Origin: Chloroflexota bacterium
GTDB taxonomy: Bacteria; Chloroflexota; Anaerolineae; Anaerolineales; Villigracilaceae
Reading direction: 5' to 3'
Assembly (NCBI GenBank): GCA_013388855.1
Contig: JACAEM010000034.1
Span: 62,001-126,000 of the forward strand
Length of the DNA stretch: 64,000 nucleotides
How positions within the stretch are numbered: the first letter of the stretch is position 1; each line of letters starts with the position of its first letter. Positions 11,508 through 19,192 of this stretch are shown piece by piece. A program made the translations under genes and the position numbers. Under the pieces are notes generated by a model. That model did not search any database and was not told the origin of the DNA. It worked only from the letters and a program-made list of their open reading frames with translations.

Positions 11508-11536
11508 TTGATAGCACAAACAAGGGCGAAAATCAA
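11508..11536 (-). promoter_or_regulatory. Promoter of the MBL-fold hydrolase gene
   Basis: On the minus strand TTGATT (11536-11531) and TATCAA (11513-11508) are separated by 17 bases, placing the transcription start about 25 bases before the ATG. Confidence 0.6.
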
Positions 11537-11588
11537 GTTGACCAGACAACTTCTTCGCATTTTAGTAAGGATGCATGAATTACCATGC

Positions 11589-11617
11589 TTGCTTACGTGT
11601 TTCTACCGTGATACACT
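11589..11617 (+). promoter_or_regulatory. Promoter of the receiver/transposase fusion gene
   Basis: TTGCTT (11589-11594) and TACACT (11612-11617) are separated by 17 bases. The predicted leader is about 36 bases and has no clear Shine-Dalgarno sequence. Confidence 0.5.
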
Positions 11618-11659
11618 TTGAAAAGTCAGAGTGTAGTCCGGTTAACACGTTAGTGACAC

Positions 11660-13291
11660 ATGAACAAAAACCTTCTGCTCGTCAGCGCAGATACGTATTT
11701 TACAAAAGTACTGCTTCAGAGTCTGGAACGGGAAGGGTACCGCGTTCATACAGCCAAGGGAAAAGGCGAAGCGGTGGTCCGTGCAGATGAGCAGAACTGC
11801 TCGCTTGCCTTCCTTGATATGGACCTTGGATACAAGGCGGTTTCTGAATATGGACGTGCGCTTCGCTCGCTCAACCCGAACATCAGGCTGGTCCTGTTTT
11901 CTGACGAGGATGTGCCCCCCGTACTGGATGAGATCCGTCCGTGGATCTTGTTACGCAAGCCCTATTATTTACCGGATGTATTGACTATGCTAAATGAAAA
12001 TCCCGCCTCCACACCCAAGCCCGCCAAGACACCCACTCCATCCCATCCCGTGCAAACGACCAGTACGGAACCGGTATGGTTGCGTGATGTAAGCAAGGCG
12101 GCGCAACATCTCACGCGTCTTACGCTGGAGTCTTCCGCACAGGCGGCATTGATCACGCGCGGCGAACATCTCTGGGCATACGCCGGGGGCCTTTCACAGA
12201 ACGCGGCAAAGGAACTGGCAGTCACGGTCACTCGTCACTGGGACGGGCAAAAGGGCAGCGACCTTCTGCGCTTCGTCCGGCTGGAGGCGACCAAGGCGGA
12301 GCACATGCTCTACGCCACGCGCATCGCCGACGATGTGGTGCTGGCGCTCGTCTTCGACGCAGAGACTCCGTTCAGCACGATCCGCACGCAGGCAGGTCAG
12401 TTGGCGCATTCCCTCTCCATCACCCCCATTGAAGAGGCGCAACCGCCCGTAGTGCAGAAACAGCCCAAGGCTTCGCACGATGCGCCCACGCAATACGCCG
12501 AAGACGAGCCTGCAGAAGAACTCGATATTCCATCCATCTCCGATATTCTGTCCGATGTTCCGCCTCCCACCCCCGAACCGGGAGCAACGTCATCCCCCTC
12601 CATACAAGAACAGGAAGAGTGGGCGTCGAATCCCATTCCTTCCCGCCCGAATCATTACAGCCGCGAGAGTTCCCCCGCGGTGCGCGTGAATGACCTGCTG
12701 GTTTCCAATCAACAAAATGAGGAGACCGTGGAACGCACGGTGCAGGATTTCGACGCGACCATGCCGTCGAAGTCGCGCCCGCGCCCCGAGACGCCTGTCC
12801 GTAGACCGATGCCCGGCGAATTGGACGAGACCCGCCCGCATTCGATCACCGAAGTGGCGAGTCGCGTCATGCTTGACCCGATCTCGCCCGGACTGTACAA
12901 CCTGACCTACGCCTGTTTATTAGTGCCGCGTTTCAGTTCCCATTATCTGACCGGCGATATTTCAGACCGCTTGTCGGAATGGCTGCCGAACATTTGCATT
13001 GCTTTTGGCTGGCGGTTGGAGTATCTTGCTGTGCGACCGGAATATGTGCAATGGGTGGTGAACGTCCCGCCTGCCACGTCGCCTGGGTATCTCATGCGCA
13101 TTATGCGCCAGCAAACATCGGAGAAGATCTTTGCCGAGTTTCCGCGCATGAAAAAGGAAAATCCGTCGGGCGACTTTTGGGCGCCGGGGTACCTCATCAT
13201 GGGGGGCACGCAGCCGCATCCGCCGCAACTGGTAAAGGATTACATTAAGCAAACCCGCTCAAGGCAGGGGTATTCGCAGCCGAGAAGGTAA
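11660..13291 (+). CDS. Receiver / roadblock-like / IS200-type (Y1) transposase-domain fusion protein
   Basis: This 543-residue protein joins parts that are rarely found together. Residues 1-112 form a receiver-like domain with Asp53 as candidate phospho-acceptor (FLDMDL), Ser81 and Lys100 (RKP), but with SAD instead of an acidic pair. Residues about 140-250 look like a roadblock/LC7-type alpha-beta domain. A disordered Pro/Glu/Ser-rich linker runs to about 405. Residues about 411-535 align from end to end with IS200/IS605 TnpA (YNLTYACLLVPR; GDFWAPGYLI; VKDYIKQT). Tyr528 matches the catalytic Tyr, but the metal-binding HUH motif is changed to Tyr462-Val-Gln464, so nuclease activity should be lost. 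No transposon ends are visible. I infer a domesticated DNA- or RNA-binding output domain. Its function is unknown. Confidence 0.85.
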   Translation: MNKNLLLVSADTYFTKVLLQSLEREGYRVHTAKGKGEAVVRADEQNCSLAFLDMDLGYKAVSEYGRALRSLNPNIRLVLFSDEDVPPVLDEIRPWILLRKPYYLPDVLTMLNENPASTPKPAKTPTPSHPVQTTSTEPVWLRDVSKAAQHLTRLTLESSAQAALITRGEHLWAYAGGLSQNAAKELAVTVTRHWDGQKGSDLLRFVRLEATKAEHMLYATRIADDVVLALVFDAETPFSTIRTQAGQLAHSLSITPIEEAQPPVVQKQPKASHDAPTQYAEDEPAEELDIPSISDILSDVPPPTPEPGATSSPSIQEQEEWASNPIPSRPNHYSRESSPAVRVNDLLVSNQQNEETVERTVQDFDATMPSKSRPRPETPVRRPMPGELDETRPHSITEVASRVMLDPISPGLYNLTYACLLVPRFSSHYLTGDISDRLSEWLPNICIAFGWRLEYLAVRPEYVQWVVNVPPATSPGYLMRIMRQQTSEKIFAEFPRMKKENPSGDFWAPGYLIMGGTQPHPPQLVKDYIKQTRSRQGYSQPRR

Positions 13292-13320
13292 AACTGGAAA
13301 TTGTGTTCTAAAAATCCTGA

Positions 13321-13353
13321 CCGCAGAGTATAATCACTCTGCGGTTTGTTTTT
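13321..13353 (+). terminator. Terminator hairpin with a TATAAT box in its loop (polA promoter)
   Basis: CCGCAGAG (13321-13328) and CTCTGCGG (13337-13344) form a perfect 8-bp stem followed by TTTGTTTTT, a clear terminator for the fusion gene. The eight-base loop is TATAATCA, and this TATAAT (13329-13334) is also the best -10 box for polA. The -35 region is weak (TTGTGT at 13301 is too far, TTCTAA at 13306). Confidence 0.75.
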
Positions 13354-13390
13354 GATCCAGGTTTCAATCTCCAATTACGATTTTACGAAC

Positions 13391-16192
13391 ATGCCTCCCA
13401 CCCTCTACCTCATTGATGGACATGCCCTCGCTTACCGCATGTACTTTGCCCTGACTGCTGTCGGCGGCAGTCAGCGCTGGCAAACCTCCAAAGGCGAACC
13501 CACCGCGGGAGTTTATGGCTTTGCACGCGAACTGCTGCGCATCCTTGAACAGGAAAAGCCCGAATACATCGCCGTCGCCTTCGACGTGGGCAAGACCTTC
13601 CGCGATGAGATCTTTCCCGAATACAAGGGGACGCGCGAAAAGATGCCCGATGACCTGCGTCCGCAGATCAAGCGTATTCGAGAAATGGTGGATGCGTTCA
13701 ACATTCCACGGCTGGAAATGGAAGGCTATGAAGCGGATGACGTTCTCGGCTCCGTGGCGCGGATTGCCGCCGGGCAGGGATTGGGCGTCAAAATCGTCAC
13801 CGGTGACCGGGATTTGTTGCAGCTGGTGGACAAACGTACGGTCGTCTACCTTGCGGGCGATGACCAGAATTACATCAAAGATGAAGATGTCGTCAAGAAA
13901 CTCGGCGTGCTTCCCAAACAGGTTGTGGATTACAAAGCGCTTGTCGGCGACAAATCCGATAACATCCCCGGCGTGGCGGGCGTCGGTGAAAAGACCGCCA
14001 TCGCGTTGATCGAGAAATACAAGACTCTCGATGGCATCTATGAACACATCGATGAAATCGAGAATCGCTGGAAGACCAAACTCGAAGCCAACAAAGTCAA
14101 CGCCTATCTCAGCCGTGACCTGGCGCAGATTAGAACAGATTTAAATATCAAACTCGATCTGGAACATGCCAAGTCGCACGAGCTGAATATCCCAGCTATC
14201 GAGGCTTTCTTCAAGGAGATGGAATTCCGTTCCCTGCTCAAGACGCTGGAAAAAGTGACAGGAAAATCCATTTCCCCTGAAACGCCCGCTCCGATCACCG
14301 CGCCCAAAGCAGGGCAACAGATGTCCATGTTTGTGAATGAGCCGCAGGTCATTGTTGCTCCAAAGACAGAATCACATCTCAAAGTCAATATCGTTGATAC
14401 TGTCGAAAAACTGGCAGATTTGGTCAAAGCCTTGAACAAGGCAAAAGTCATTTCCTTCGATACGGAGACAACATCCACCGAAGAAATGAAGGCGGATATC
14501 GTCGGCATTTCCCTCGCGGTCAAGGAAGGTGAGGGATATTACATCCCGGTCGGACACAACGCCGGAACCAATCTGCCGCTGAAAAAGGTTATCGAGGCGC
14601 TGACGGAGCCGATGACGAGCCCGAAGATCGGCAAGATCGCGCACAATGCCAAATACGATTACATTGTACTGGCGAAGTTCGGGCTGGTCGTTTCGCCATT
14701 GACCTTCGATACGATGCTGGCAGAATTCATCATCGACCCATCGTCGCGTCATCTTGGGTTGAAGAATCTCGCTGCGGTCAAACTCGGCGAAGAGATGACT
14801 CACATTGAAGAATTGATTGGCAAAGGCAGGAAACAGCTCAGCATGGCAGAAGTGGCGGTCGAGTCCGTTGCGCCGTACGCAGTGGCGGATGCGGAGACCA
14901 CCTTGCGTCTCATGCCGCTTCAAATGCAGGAACTTAAACGCGTGAACGGCGAGAAATTGCTCGAAGAGATTGACTTGCCACTGACACCCGTCCTTGCAGA
15001 GATGGAAATGGAAGGCATTCTGCTTGACCTGCCATTCTTTGAGAAAATATCGAAGGAGTTGACCAAACGGTTGAACGAGATTGAAAAGCAGGTTTATGAA
15101 TTGGTTGGAAAACCGTTCAACATCAATTCCACCCAGCAGCTTTCGGACGTGCTGTTCAAAACCCTCGGGCTGGAGCCGCCCGATAAGAGCAACAAAACCA
15201 CCAGTGGGCACTACTCCACGGCGGCGGGCGTGCTTGAATTGTTGAGCGGCAAACATCCCGTCGTGGATCTTGTGTTGGAACATCGTGAACTTTCGAAAAT
15301 CAAATCCACCTACGTGGACGCGCTCCCGCCCGCGGTCGATGCGAATGGACGCGTACATACCTCCTACAGCCAGATCGGCGCGGTGACGGGGCGTCTCTCC
15401 TCGAATAACCCGAATCTACAGAACATCCCGATCCGCACAGAGACCGGGCGGCGCGTCCGCAATGGATTCATCGCGGGCGAAGGTAATCTACTTCTCTCCG
15501 TGGATTACTCGCAGATCGAACTGCGCATCGTCGCGCACATGGCTCAGGACGAGGGGATGTTGGCGGCGTTCCGCGCCGGGGAGGATATCCATGCTACAAC
15601 AGCGGGAGCTATCTACGGCGTCAGTCCCGAAGCGGTGACGAAGGAGATGCGGCGTCATGCCAAGGCAATCAACTTCGGTCTCATCTACGGCATGTCGGCA
15701 TTCGGTCTGACGCGTTCCACTGATCTGACTCTCGCCGAGGCAGAACGGTTTGTCAAAACCTATTTTGAAAAATTCCCCGGAATCAAAAAATATCTCGATG
15801 GCATTAAAAGACAAGCTGCCCAACAGGGGTACGTGGAAACACTGCTGGGGCGGCGGCGATATTTCCCTGCCCTGCAAAACAAGCAAAATGTGCAGATCAA
15901 GAACCGTGAAGAACGCGAAGCTATCAACGCGCCCATTCAGGGCACCGCGGCAGACATCATGAAGATTGCCATGATCAAAATCCCGCCGGCGCTTGAAGCG
16001 GCCGGCTTGCAGGCGAAAATGCTTTTGCAGGTACACGACGAACTCGTTCTGGAATGTCCGCAGGAGGAACTGGAGAAAACCGCACGCGTGGTGCAGGAGA
16101 CGATGGCAAACGCCTACCCATTGAGCATCCCGCTTTCCACCGAGGCGAAGTATGGGAAGAATTGGGGAGAGATGAAGAATATCGCTGGTTGA
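13391..16192 (+). CDS. polA: DNA polymerase I
   Basis: This 933-residue enzyme has three domains. The N-terminal 5'-3' exonuclease (about 1-290) starts MPPTLYLIDGHALAYRMYFA. The 3'-5' proofreading domain (about 345-535) keeps its metal ligands (SFDTETTS, HNAKYDYI, APYAVADAETT). The polymerase domain (about 540-933) has motif A (DYSQIELRI), motif B (RHAKAINFGLIYGMSAFG) and motif C (VHDELVLE). It fills gaps during repair and removes Okazaki primers. Unlike the Thermus enzyme, the proofreading site looks intact. ATG 13391 was chosen because the family begins here; the extra upstream codons in frame lie in the terminator/promoter region. The leader is about 50 bases and no strong Shine-Dalgarno is visible. 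Confidence 0.96.
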   Translation: MPPTLYLIDGHALAYRMYFALTAVGGSQRWQTSKGEPTAGVYGFARELLRILEQEKPEYIAVAFDVGKTFRDEIFPEYKGTREKMPDDLRPQIKRIREMVDAFNIPRLEMEGYEADDVLGSVARIAAGQGLGVKIVTGDRDLLQLVDKRTVVYLAGDDQNYIKDEDVVKKLGVLPKQVVDYKALVGDKSDNIPGVAGVGEKTAIALIEKYKTLDGIYEHIDEIENRWKTKLEANKVNAYLSRDLAQIRTDLNIKLDLEHAKSHELNIPAIEAFFKEMEFRSLLKTLEKVTGKSISPETPAPITAPKAGQQMSMFVNEPQVIVAPKTESHLKVNIVDTVEKLADLVKALNKAKVISFDTETTSTEEMKADIVGISLAVKEGEGYYIPVGHNAGTNLPLKKVIEALTEPMTSPKIGKIAHNAKYDYIVLAKFGLVVSPLTFDTMLAEFIIDPSSRHLGLKNLAAVKLGEEMTHIEELIGKGRKQLSMAEVAVESVAPYAVADAETTLRLMPLQMQELKRVNGEKLLEEIDLPLTPVLAEMEMEGILLDLPFFEKISKELTKRLNEIEKQVYELVGKPFNINSTQQLSDVLFKTLGLEPPDKSNKTTSGHYSTAAGVLELLSGKHPVVDLVLEHRELSKIKSTYVDALPPAVDANGRVHTSYSQIGAVTGRLSSNNPNLQNIPIRTETGRRVRNGFIAGEGNLLLSVDYSQIELRIVAHMAQDEGMLAAFRAGEDIHATTAGAIYGVSPEAVTKEMRRHAKAINFGLIYGMSAFGLTRSTDLTLAEAERFVKTYFEKFPGIKKYLDGIKRQAAQQGYVETLLGRRRYFPALQNKQNVQIKNREEREAINAPIQGTAADIMKIAMIKIPPALEAAGLQAKMLLQVHDELVLECPQEELEKTARVVQETMANAYPLSIPLSTEAKYGKNWGEMKNIAG

Positions 16193-16873: not shown

Positions 16874-19192
16874 ATGCCCGGACGAGAAGACATTTTCCAA
16901 AAAGCCATGAACGAAGGTCACTCCGCCGCCTGGGACCAGGAATGGAACAAGGCAGCGACGGCGTATCGCGCCGCCCTGCAGGAACTGCCCGACCATCCCA
17001 AGGCGCTCAACAGCCTCGGCTTGGCCCTATTCCAGATGGGGAATTACGATGAAGCCATGCAAATCTACAAACGCGTGGCGCATGTTTCCCCGCAGGACCC
17101 GGCGCCCATGGAAAAACTCGCACAACTCCTCGAACGCACCGGGCACCTCAGGGAAGCCATCGAAGCCGCGATGAAGGCCGCAGAACTGTACCTCAATCAG
17201 CGCGATGTGGATAAAGCCATCGAGAACTGGGTGCGCGTGACGAGCCTCGACCCTGAGAATATCATCGCCCATTCACGTCTTGCCCTCGCTCACGAACGTC
17301 TCGACCACAAGGCGCAGGCTGTTACCGAATACCTGGCCGTCGCCAGCCTGATTCAGCGCACCGGCAACGCCGAAAAGACCGCCGAACTCGTCAACAAGGC
17401 TCTTAAGATCCTGCCCGAAAGCGCGGAAGCACAACAGGCGCTCACCCTCCTCCGCTCTGGGCAACTGCTCCCTAAGCCATTGCGCCCCAAAGGCGGAACG
17501 GGACCCATCGCCATGGCGCAGGTCAAGCAACTGGAACAACCGAAAAAGCAAGCCGATTCCGGGCTGGACCCGGTGGCGGAAGCGCGCCAAAAAGCGCTCA
17601 CCCGGCTGGCAGAGATCCTCTTCGAGTACTCCACCGACGACGGCGCCTCCCCACAAGCCCGCCGTGGACTGCAAGCCCTGATGCGCGGCACCGGTCAACT
17701 TTCCATGCAAGCCTCCGAGCAGACGAAGGTCGTCCTGCACCTCGGTCAAGCCATCGACGCGCAAAGCAAAGGCAACGAAGCACAAGCCGCAGACGAACTC
17801 GAGCACGCCCTGGAGGCGGGTTTCAACCATCCTGCCTTGTACTTCAACCTGGGACTCATCCGCTCGAAAAGCGACCGTCTCGAAACGGCGGTCCGCCATC
17901 TGCAACATTCCGTCAAGCACAACGATTTCGCTCTCGCGGCGCGTCTGCTGTTGGGGCAGATCAACCAAAAGTTGGGCAGACTCGGTCCTGCCTCCATCGA
18001 ATATCTCGAAGCATTGAAGATCGCCGATTCGCAGGTCGTGCCTGCCGAACAGTCCGATGAGATTCGTCAGATGTATGAGCCGCTCATCGAAGCGCAGGCA
18101 AGCCAGACCGATGAAGCCGCGCTCAGGCGTCTGTGCGACAACATCAACGAAATGCTCATGCGTAAGAACTGGCGAGACCACCTGCACAAATCCCGCGAGC
18201 AGATGCCCAAATCACAGGATGGCGACCTGCCAATGCCCATTGCAGAGGTGATTCTTCAGGCGCAATCCAGCCAAGTGCTCGAGTCCATCAACCACGTTCA
18301 CCAACTGGCGCGCGCCGGAAAACTGCGCTCTGCCATGGATGAAGCCTTCCAGGCGCTGACCTACGCTCCCAACTACCTGCCGCTTCATACCCTGATGGGC
18401 GACCTGCTCGTGCGCGAGGAACACATCCCCGAAGCCATTGCAAAGTTCTCCACGGTGGCGCAGGCGTACAGCGTGCGCGGAGAAGCCGCGCAAGCCGCAA
18501 AGATGCTCAAACGCGTCGTCCAACTTGCCCCCATGGACATGGGCGCCCGCACCAAGCTCATCGACCAGCTCGTCGCGCGCGGACAGGTGGATGAAGCCAT
18601 CCGCGAATACATCGAACTCGCCGACATCTACTACCGCCTCGCCGAACTTGACATGGCGCGCAAGACCTACACCACAGCGCTGCGCGTCGTCCAACAAGCC
18701 AACGCCGACCGGCAATGGAACGTCCACATCCTCCAACGCATGGCGGATATTGACATGCAGAGGCTCGACTGGAAGCAAGCCATCCGCGTCTACGAACAGA
18801 TCCGCACTCTGCGCCCGGATGACGAGGCTGTCCGAAAGAACATCATCGAATTAAGCCTGCGGCTGGGACAGCCCGCCCAGGCAAACGCAGAACTCGAAAG
18901 TTATCTTACCTACCTCCAGACCAACAACCACCGCGAACAGGGAGTCAAGTTCATTGAAAGCCTCCTGGAGGAACGCCCCGACGATGTAATCCTGCGCCGC
19001 GCGCTGGCGCAACAGTATCAGCAGACCGGGCGCGTCGAGGAAGCGGTTGCCCAGCTTGATTCGCTCGCCGAGTCGATGCTTGATCTCGGCAAAAAGGAGG
19101 AGGCGATGGTGCTCATCAACCAGATTCTCCTGATGAACCCACCCAACGCCGAACAATATCGACAACTGTTGGTACAACTTCAATCCAAATAG
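16874..19192 (+). CDS. Large cytoplasmic tetratricopeptide-repeat protein
   Basis: The 772-residue protein consists almost entirely of TPR-like helix pairs, for example PKALNSLGLALFQMGNYDEAM (about 37-57), YFNLGLIRSKSDRLETAVRHL, LHTLMGDLLVREEHIPEAIAKF and LRRALAQQYQQTGRVEEAVAQL near the C-terminus. A Lys/Pro-rich break lies at about 205-235. There is no signal peptide or TM helix, so it is cytoplasmic and most likely a protein-interaction scaffold; partners are unknown. The start is fixed by a TATAAT box 7 bases upstream. A strong terminator follows the gene, which makes it monocistronic. Confidence 0.85.
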   Translation: MPGREDIFQKAMNEGHSAAWDQEWNKAATAYRAALQELPDHPKALNSLGLALFQMGNYDEAMQIYKRVAHVSPQDPAPMEKLAQLLERTGHLREAIEAAMKAAELYLNQRDVDKAIENWVRVTSLDPENIIAHSRLALAHERLDHKAQAVTEYLAVASLIQRTGNAEKTAELVNKALKILPESAEAQQALTLLRSGQLLPKPLRPKGGTGPIAMAQVKQLEQPKKQADSGLDPVAEARQKALTRLAEILFEYSTDDGASPQARRGLQALMRGTGQLSMQASEQTKVVLHLGQAIDAQSKGNEAQAADELEHALEAGFNHPALYFNLGLIRSKSDRLETAVRHLQHSVKHNDFALAARLLLGQINQKLGRLGPASIEYLEALKIADSQVVPAEQSDEIRQMYEPLIEAQASQTDEAALRRLCDNINEMLMRKNWRDHLHKSREQMPKSQDGDLPMPIAEVILQAQSSQVLESINHVHQLARAGKLRSAMDEAFQALTYAPNYLPLHTLMGDLLVREEHIPEAIAKFSTVAQAYSVRGEAAQAAKMLKRVVQLAPMDMGARTKLIDQLVARGQVDEAIREYIELADIYYRLAELDMARKTYTTALRVVQQANADRQWNVHILQRMADIDMQRLDWKQAIRVYEQIRTLRPDDEAVRKNIIELSLRLGQPAQANAELESYLTYLQTNNHREQGVKFIESLLEERPDDVILRRALAQQYQQTGRVEEAVAQLDSLAESMLDLGKKEEAMVLINQILLMNPPNAEQYRQLLVQLQSK

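Follow-up and report, generated by a model that had tools for sequence, protein, structure and literature searches.

The window that we analysed, a stretch of 64,000 nucleotides from a Chloroflexota bacterium, encodes a protein in which receiver-like and roadblock-like domains are connected by a linker to a Y1 transposase domain that no longer has its HUH motif. Sequence comparisons strongly support the domestication of this Y1 domain, and the best explanation for the fusion is an ancient, vertically inherited, domesticated TnpA of the IS200/IS605 type. With regard to function, we propose, with a probability of about 0.4, that a cleavage-dead domesticated TnpA would act as the output of a signalling protein, reading a hairpin linked to polA and placing polA expression under the control of a signal. 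Hairpin reading is only slightly more likely than a role purely as a scaffold. The features on which the analysis draws are collected in Table 1.

Table 1. Features of the fusion gene and its surroundings (positions in the window)
Feature	Position	Strand	Basis or remark
HUH-less Y1 fusion gene	11660..13291	+	543 aa, ATG to TAA; receiver-like, roadblock-like, linker and Y1 parts
Receiver-like domain, residues 1-117	11660..12010	+	Retains Asp53 and Lys100 but not the acidic pair
Roadblock/LC7 (MglB-like) domain, residues 136-258	12065..12433	+	AlphaFold2 model, Foldseek
Linker	12434..12895	+	Mostly low model confidence; some short conserved motifs
Y1_Tnp domain, residues 413-531	12896..13252	+	Pfam, NCBIfam, solved TnpA chains
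Former HUH site, now Tyr462-Val463-Gln464	13043..13051	+	Alignments
Tyr528 at the catalytic Tyr position	13241..13243	+	Tyr or Phe across the wider family
Promoter-like element CTTGCT...TGATACACT, 5' of the fusion gene	11588..11617	+	45/54 upstream regions
Hairpin CCGCAGAGTATAATCACTCTGCGG with T-run, intrinsic terminator of the fusion gene, upstream of polA	13319..13354	+	Conserved
TATAAT inside the terminator loop	13329-13334	+	
polA (DNA polymerase I), conserved downstream neighbour	13391..16192	+	Named from its sequence
TPR-like repeat protein, conserved gene after polA	16874..19192	+	Named from its sequence

The Y1 domain and its former HUH site

The original prediction held that the C-terminal region aligns along its whole length with TnpA of IS200. 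In agreement with this, the profile search that it had proposed gave a Pfam Y1_Tnp match covering positions 3-120 of the 121 in the model (E 1.5e-14, above the curated cut-off), the NCBIfam profile for IS200/IS605 transposases (NF033573) scored above its own cut-off (E 1.1e-16), and the solved TnpA chains 2ec2, 2fyx and 2f4f matched the domain with E values of 1.7e-11 to 1.6e-9. Apart from these profile and structure-derived matches, the fusion protein shares with IS200/IS605 TnpA (PF01797, NF033573) the conserved Trp and Tyr near beta4 and the alignment of the Tyr position. In contrast to such transposases, it has no HUH, varies between Tyr and Phe at the catalytic position, is less basic and is fused to receiver and roadblock domains, and its gene is the only Y1 gene of the genome and has a fixed place by polA.

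When aligned with the solved chains, the HUH motif falls on PEYVQW in the fusion protein, and neither of its ligands is retained, so the reading of this site as Tyr-Val-Gln was right for the window protein. All of the 66 close full-length sequences (alignment A2) have Tyr at position 462 and Gln at 464. In a wider family alignment, from which a copy of the window (L070) was left out, HUH was absent from 69 of 73 rows. The four rows that have it (L061, L062, L064 and L065) are IS200-type genes, and the loss expected across orthologues was thus found; one of the 69 HUH-less rows, L063, is IS-like and truncated. A class-wide Y1_Tnp search returned 28 domains from 29 loci, 27 of them with HUH, and the sole HUH-less domain lay at the same locus as a fusion. 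More distant members carry single-His forms at the site (DHMQW, DHLQW, DYLHW). In a FastTree tree built without L063, L244, L218, L241 and L060, the HUH-less tips formed a single clade (67/67) with weak support (0.655), a topology that fits a single loss event.

The expectation that Tyr528 is kept held for the window protein and for 65 of its 66 close relatives in A2, but not for the wider family, where the 69 HUH-less rows have Tyr in 35 cases and Phe in 32, polA-linked members with Phe among them. Given this frequency of Phe, catalysis looks lost, and with it the cutting activity of the fusion Y1 domain. It is highly improbable that the domain is still an active single-strand nuclease that employs other metal ligands (Tyr/Gln or residues nearby) together with Tyr528. 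Such an enzyme would be in line with the near-constant Tyr528 and the invariant Tyr462 and Gln464 of the close relatives, but it is opposed by the Phe substitutions, also in polA-linked members, and by the loss of both HUH ligands from the window protein.

Receiver, roadblock and linker parts

Asp53, Ser81 and Lys100 stand where the original prediction had placed them. Asp53 is invariant (66/66 rows of A2 and 18/18 of alignment A1), Lys100 is present in 65/66 and 17/18 rows, respectively, and Ser81 is variable, with Cys in 39 of the 66 rows of A2. The Pfam Response_reg profile matched the whole window protein below its cut-off (E 9.4e-4); it matched 14 of 18 family members, with a best E of 2.1e-8. 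Comparison of the receiver model with KdpE gave a VIA Z of 17.3 (rmsd 2.1, 115 aligned). When the whole model was compared, nearly all of the 50 listed rows spanned the receiver only (residues 1-119), so that this comparison bears on the receiver fold.

The acidic pair that follows beta1 in receivers and binds Mg is gone: neither Asp nor Glu occupies position 9 or 10 in any row of A2 (66/66) or A1 (18/18). Asp is found at position 11 in 7 of the 66 rows of A2, and the relatives L157, L162 and L163 have Asp at the first place of the pair. Because there is no acid at positions 9 and 10, gating via ordinary receiver phosphorylation appears doubtful, to which the invariance of Asp53 is a counterpoint. 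The doubt is shared by eight members of the genus whose matches begin after the receiver and by relatives that have no Y1 part. Of the proposal that receiver and roadblock-like parts gate the Y1 domain, the presence of both parts was supported, fold matches having been found for each, but gating by an ordinary phosphorylation switch is the doubtful half.

Folded alone with AlphaFold2, the roadblock domain reached a pLDDT of 85.7, and the best Foldseek matches of this model were the Myxococcus MglB structures 6hjm and 6h5b (E 2.3e-6 to 4.1e-6, TM ~0.7). At the profile level, NCBIfam MglB matched 6 of 18 members weakly (best E 0.014), and the Pfam roadblock profile had no match in the window protein or the 18 members. 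The middle domain of the fusion is thus predicted to fold like MglB; roadblock domains are protein-interaction modules. MglA/MglB systems have been linked to response regulators (PMC4316618), and no Y1 transposase fusion is described in the part of that source available to us.

The linker had a pLDDT mostly below 50, and near-invariant positions lie in it between residues 293 and 305 (A2). Threonine motifs recur in the linkers of L153 and L154 (for example QTRxLDD and KTRIF(E/D)D) and may resemble kinase/FHA sites.

Distribution, selection and linkage to polA

Orthologues sharing both the three-part layout and the loss of HUH were found in the window's class, as had been anticipated. Of 61 relatives, 54 gave a match in a protein search, with partial, receiver-only and IS-type matches counted in. 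From a scan of genome contigs the best 80 of 168 relatives were kept for counts; their titles are Anaerolineae, Anaerolineales, Chloroflexi and the like, with one labelled Herpetosiphon. Matches were obtained for 394 of the 396 genomes of a class-wide sample, mostly by the receiver part alone, and only long matches count in that sample. Among the 151 genomes of a phylum sample, the roadblock-domain profile matched 14, all of them from the window's class or closer. Class members L151-L155, L158 and L159 encode proteins of ~650-1200 aa with a receiver, a long linker, a roadblock domain and a HUH-less Y1 tail, and L067-L069, L156, L157, L162 and L163 have the receiver and roadblock domains without Y1.

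Two other groups of relatives depart from this layout. Eight members from the same genus (L009-L011, L013-L016 and L018) match only from residue ~93-110 onward; in these the receiver has apparently been lost, with roadblock and Y1 kept. Standalone Y1 proteins, in frames of ~170-250 aa, are encoded at L051-L056 and L165-L170, none of these 12 loci having a full HUH. Six of them group beside the fusion Y1 domain in the tree, and for this reason the standalone HUH-less proteins look like duplicates of it. No polA was found within the stretch examined at the six loci L051-L056.

The 4.03 Mb genome yielded no Y1_Tnp gene other than the fusion gene. Among the 80 relatives examined (the best 80 of 168), polA was on the same strand in all 73 that had it in reach, and the TPR-like gene followed polA on the same strand in 59 of 59 cases. 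Such conserved synteny would be unexpected of a mobile copy. Among the 20 loci L031-L050 the linkage is seen in 16, with 2.7-2.9 kb between the genes in two of them, and it extends to 4 of 7 large class-level forms. Several of the more distant fusion gene-polA gaps measure only -2 to 9 bases, lengths that were computed on the 543-residue protein, so that negative values in Y1-less relatives are not distances. As relatives without a Y1 domain (L067-L069, L162 and L163) are also linked to polA, the linkage may not depend on Y1.

The Y1 domain is kept under purifying selection and is not debris. Its dN/dS ranged from 0 to 0.07 and was the lowest of the domains in all but a few gene pairs. In a first series against the window dS was saturated; four unsaturated pairs gave 0.021, 0.012, 0 and 0.041 for Y1 and 0.119-0.245 for the linker, and in two of these four the roadblock domain was as low as Y1 or lower. 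That the protein is a decaying, passing IS copy fused to a regulator gene by chance has next to no probability. The domain is clearly of IS200/IS605 origin, as such a copy would be, but the idea is excluded by polA synteny, purifying selection and the single genomic Y1_Tnp gene, and refuted by the orthologues and their family-wide conservation. Both the claim of domestication and the claim that this is not a passing IS copy were upheld by the same observations.

The gene had also been credited with its own promoter. No promoter came up 5' of the fusion gene in a generic scan, but a conserved CTTG...TGATACACT element is present. TGATA(C/A)ACT occurs in 45 of 54 upstream regions (L071-L150), preceded in 45 of 45 by CTTG within at most 30 bases, and 4 of the 9 regions without the element belong to receiver-less members. 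The start codon follows the element by 6-14 bases in 44 regions and by 42 bases in the window; given the short distance, most transcripts of the fusion gene are probably leaderless. The upstream region of the window (11520-11659) folds well (z -4.8), and its leader is longer than those of relatives.

Neither of two assemblies from the same genus, G009 and G017, has the fusion gene, a complete polA or the TPR-like gene. Both contain in place of polA only a 291-320 aa exonuclease-like match, and G017 alone has a partial match to the TPR-like gene (36%). We rejected this pair as a natural experiment, since loss of the block and an assembly gap are indistinguishable.

The hairpin upstream of polA and its possible reader

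A hairpin with a sequence-conserved stem, GCGCAGAG...CTCTGCGC, lies in the gap between the fusion gene and polA in the window's taxonomic family; its loop usually contains TATAAT, and a T-run accompanies it. This conserved hairpin is a new observation. When at most 2 mismatches per arm were allowed and at least 7 of 8 pairs required, it was present in 65 of the 74 loci where polA could be reached, versus 49 of 1573 random control windows of the same length. The 65 leave out L140, which has no polA and a chance-like match, and retain partial stems of the L145 type if 7 of 8 pairs were formed. Exact CGCAGAG-N3-12-CTCTGCG copies lay in the gene-polA gap in 45 of 45 cases (1.37 Mb of flanks, 80 loci). 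In the window the hairpin (13319-13354) folds as RNA with a z of -7.2, and the terminator that the gene was said to possess is confirmed at 13319-13346.

TATAAT starts the loop in 50 of the 65 hairpins and a T-run comes next; no conserved or consensus -35 was found near this TATAAT. The simplest reading is of a terminator plus a putative polA -10 box. Within the stem, pair 1 is G-C in 33 hairpins, A-T in 15, G-T in 14 and C-G in 3, and pair 5 is A-T in 62 and G-C in 3, so that the two sides of these pairs vary together. The same stem is also found with other loops (L078-L080, L092, L093 and L101), and such conservation of its sequence suggests an additional reader of the hairpin. The exact stem CGCAGAGT recurs in 25 of 56 terminators of the fusion gene, compared to 5 of 30 for the commonest stem of the TPR gene. 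The 8-base terminator arms had a mean pairwise identity of 0.42 for the fusion gene versus 0.27-0.36 in eight neighbouring gene groups, a comparison made out of register, so that the recurrence of exact stems carries more of the contrast.

There is close to an even chance that the hairpin has nothing to do with Y1 and is the terminator of the fusion gene fused to the polA -10 box, with a stem conserved for promoter function or for another regulator. The position of TATAAT at the opening of most loops with the T-run after it, the lack of a consensus -35 and the retention of Y1 in relatives whose gap has no hairpin (9 of the 74 in the window's family) agree with this explanation. The persistence of the same stem with other loops and the lower likeness among terminator stems of neighbouring genes speak against it.

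Three wider roles for the hairpin were considered and rejected. The first was a REP-like family, as the window's genome (4.03 Mb) has only two exact-arm copies, with a TATAAT-type loop once; across 61 genomes, the 13 listed copies with a TATAAT loop all stand beside the fusion gene, and the others have unrelated loops. The second was a universal Y1 ligand, as a relaxed pattern (loops 3-13) gave no hits in the more distant loci: there was none in L031-L069 or L151-L170, where five loci belong to the window's family. With loops up to 25, none was found upstream of polA in eight loci, among them L203, which has the fusion gene. The third was a known RNA family, for which no match was obtained around the fusion gene at E up to 1. 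The other exact-arm CGCAGAG/CTCTGCG copy (L173:1501-1524, equivalent to G000:C46:109523-109546) has a different loop and lies just 3' of an ORF resembling a LivF-type ABC transporter ATPase.

In the mechanism that we propose, the fusion would consist of a degenerate receiver, an MglB-like roadblock module, a flexible linker and the HUH-less Y1 output at the C-terminus. The roadblock and Y1 modules would dimerise, as relatives of both do, and the Y1 dimer would retain the hairpin-reading surface of TnpA without cleavage. In the window's family, Y1 might then read the hairpin that ends its own gene together with the polA -10 region, in the form of RNA, extruded single-stranded DNA or a duplex palindrome, and this would couple polA expression to a signal entering via the roadblock and receiver parts, possibly from a protein partner such as a Ras-like GTPase. 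A narrower version, in which the cleavage-dead TnpA would bind the stem that is at once its own terminator and the frame of the polA -10 and so tie polA supply to the roadblock/receiver signal, we regard as unlikely.

Evidence on the surface of the Y1 domain points in two directions. Hairpin reading is favoured by the conserved hairpin adjoining the gene and by P423-R424 and N501-Y511, two stretches rich in invariant residues in A2. These correspond to the regions through which TnpA-REP contacts the REP foot, situated at beta1 and around beta4 in the E. coli protein according to the available part of PMC8266576. Against hairpin reading, positive charge has been lost: mean net charge is -0.3 for the 69 HUH-less Y1 domains versus +3.4 for 31 domains with HUH (range -2 to +11), and the class-level Y1 domains are strongly acidic (-7 to -11 in 7 of 9 rows). 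In addition, HUH-less Y1 domains occur class-wide, but outside the window's family the hairpin was not found, and it is also plainly a terminator with a -10-like box. Binding of the Y1 domain to nucleic acid is plausible, although unproven.

The acidic class-level domains and the near-zero charge in the window's family, together with the degeneration of both catalytic elements, would also suit a Y1 part that is purely a dimerisation or protein-interaction module, having lost binding along with catalysis. The protein would then be a signalling scaffold, for which a Ras-like GTPase or a replication protein may be the partner, in keeping with a roadblock fold and the general knowledge that such domains interact with proteins. 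This tentative explanation is compatible with a hairpin unrelated to Y1, but is countered by the hairpin adjoining the fusion gene in 65 of 74 loci, by a charge that is mostly 0 to +5 within the window's family, and by the high conservation of the stretches matching the DNA-contact regions of TnpA.

Among known systems, the fusion resembles TnpA-REP/RAYT, in which a domesticated Y1 protein likewise has a conserved palindrome next to its gene. The fusion differs in that its palindrome with a TATAAT loop is present once in the window's genome, no GTAG being seen beside the hairpin. TldR, a nuclease-dead TnpB acting as an RNA-guided regulator, offers a second parallel. In the portions of the sources available, TnpA-REP keeps HuH and Tyr (PMC6006769, PMC8266576), unlike the HUH-less fusion, and TldR is likewise an IS605-related protein turned regulator (PMC13418256). 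TldR derives from TnpB, whereas the fusion Y1 domain derives from TnpA and no known RNA family was matched around its gene. A classification of TnpA-Y1 proteins sets aside members without HuH and Y as probably non-functional, and the available part of this survey names no receiver or roadblock fusion (PMC6006769). Searches of an open-access library brought up no description of a Y1_Tnp output of a receiver/roadblock protein or of the polA-gap hairpin.

In the fusion, strong selection thus maintains a Y1 domain without HUH within a signalling protein, in contrast to TnpA-REP, which retains its cutting site. With polA as a fixed neighbour and a candidate ligand in one family, the question of what an uncutting transposase fold is good for becomes directly testable. 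If the proposed role is true, this family would stand to TnpA as the TnpB-derived regulators stand to TnpB.
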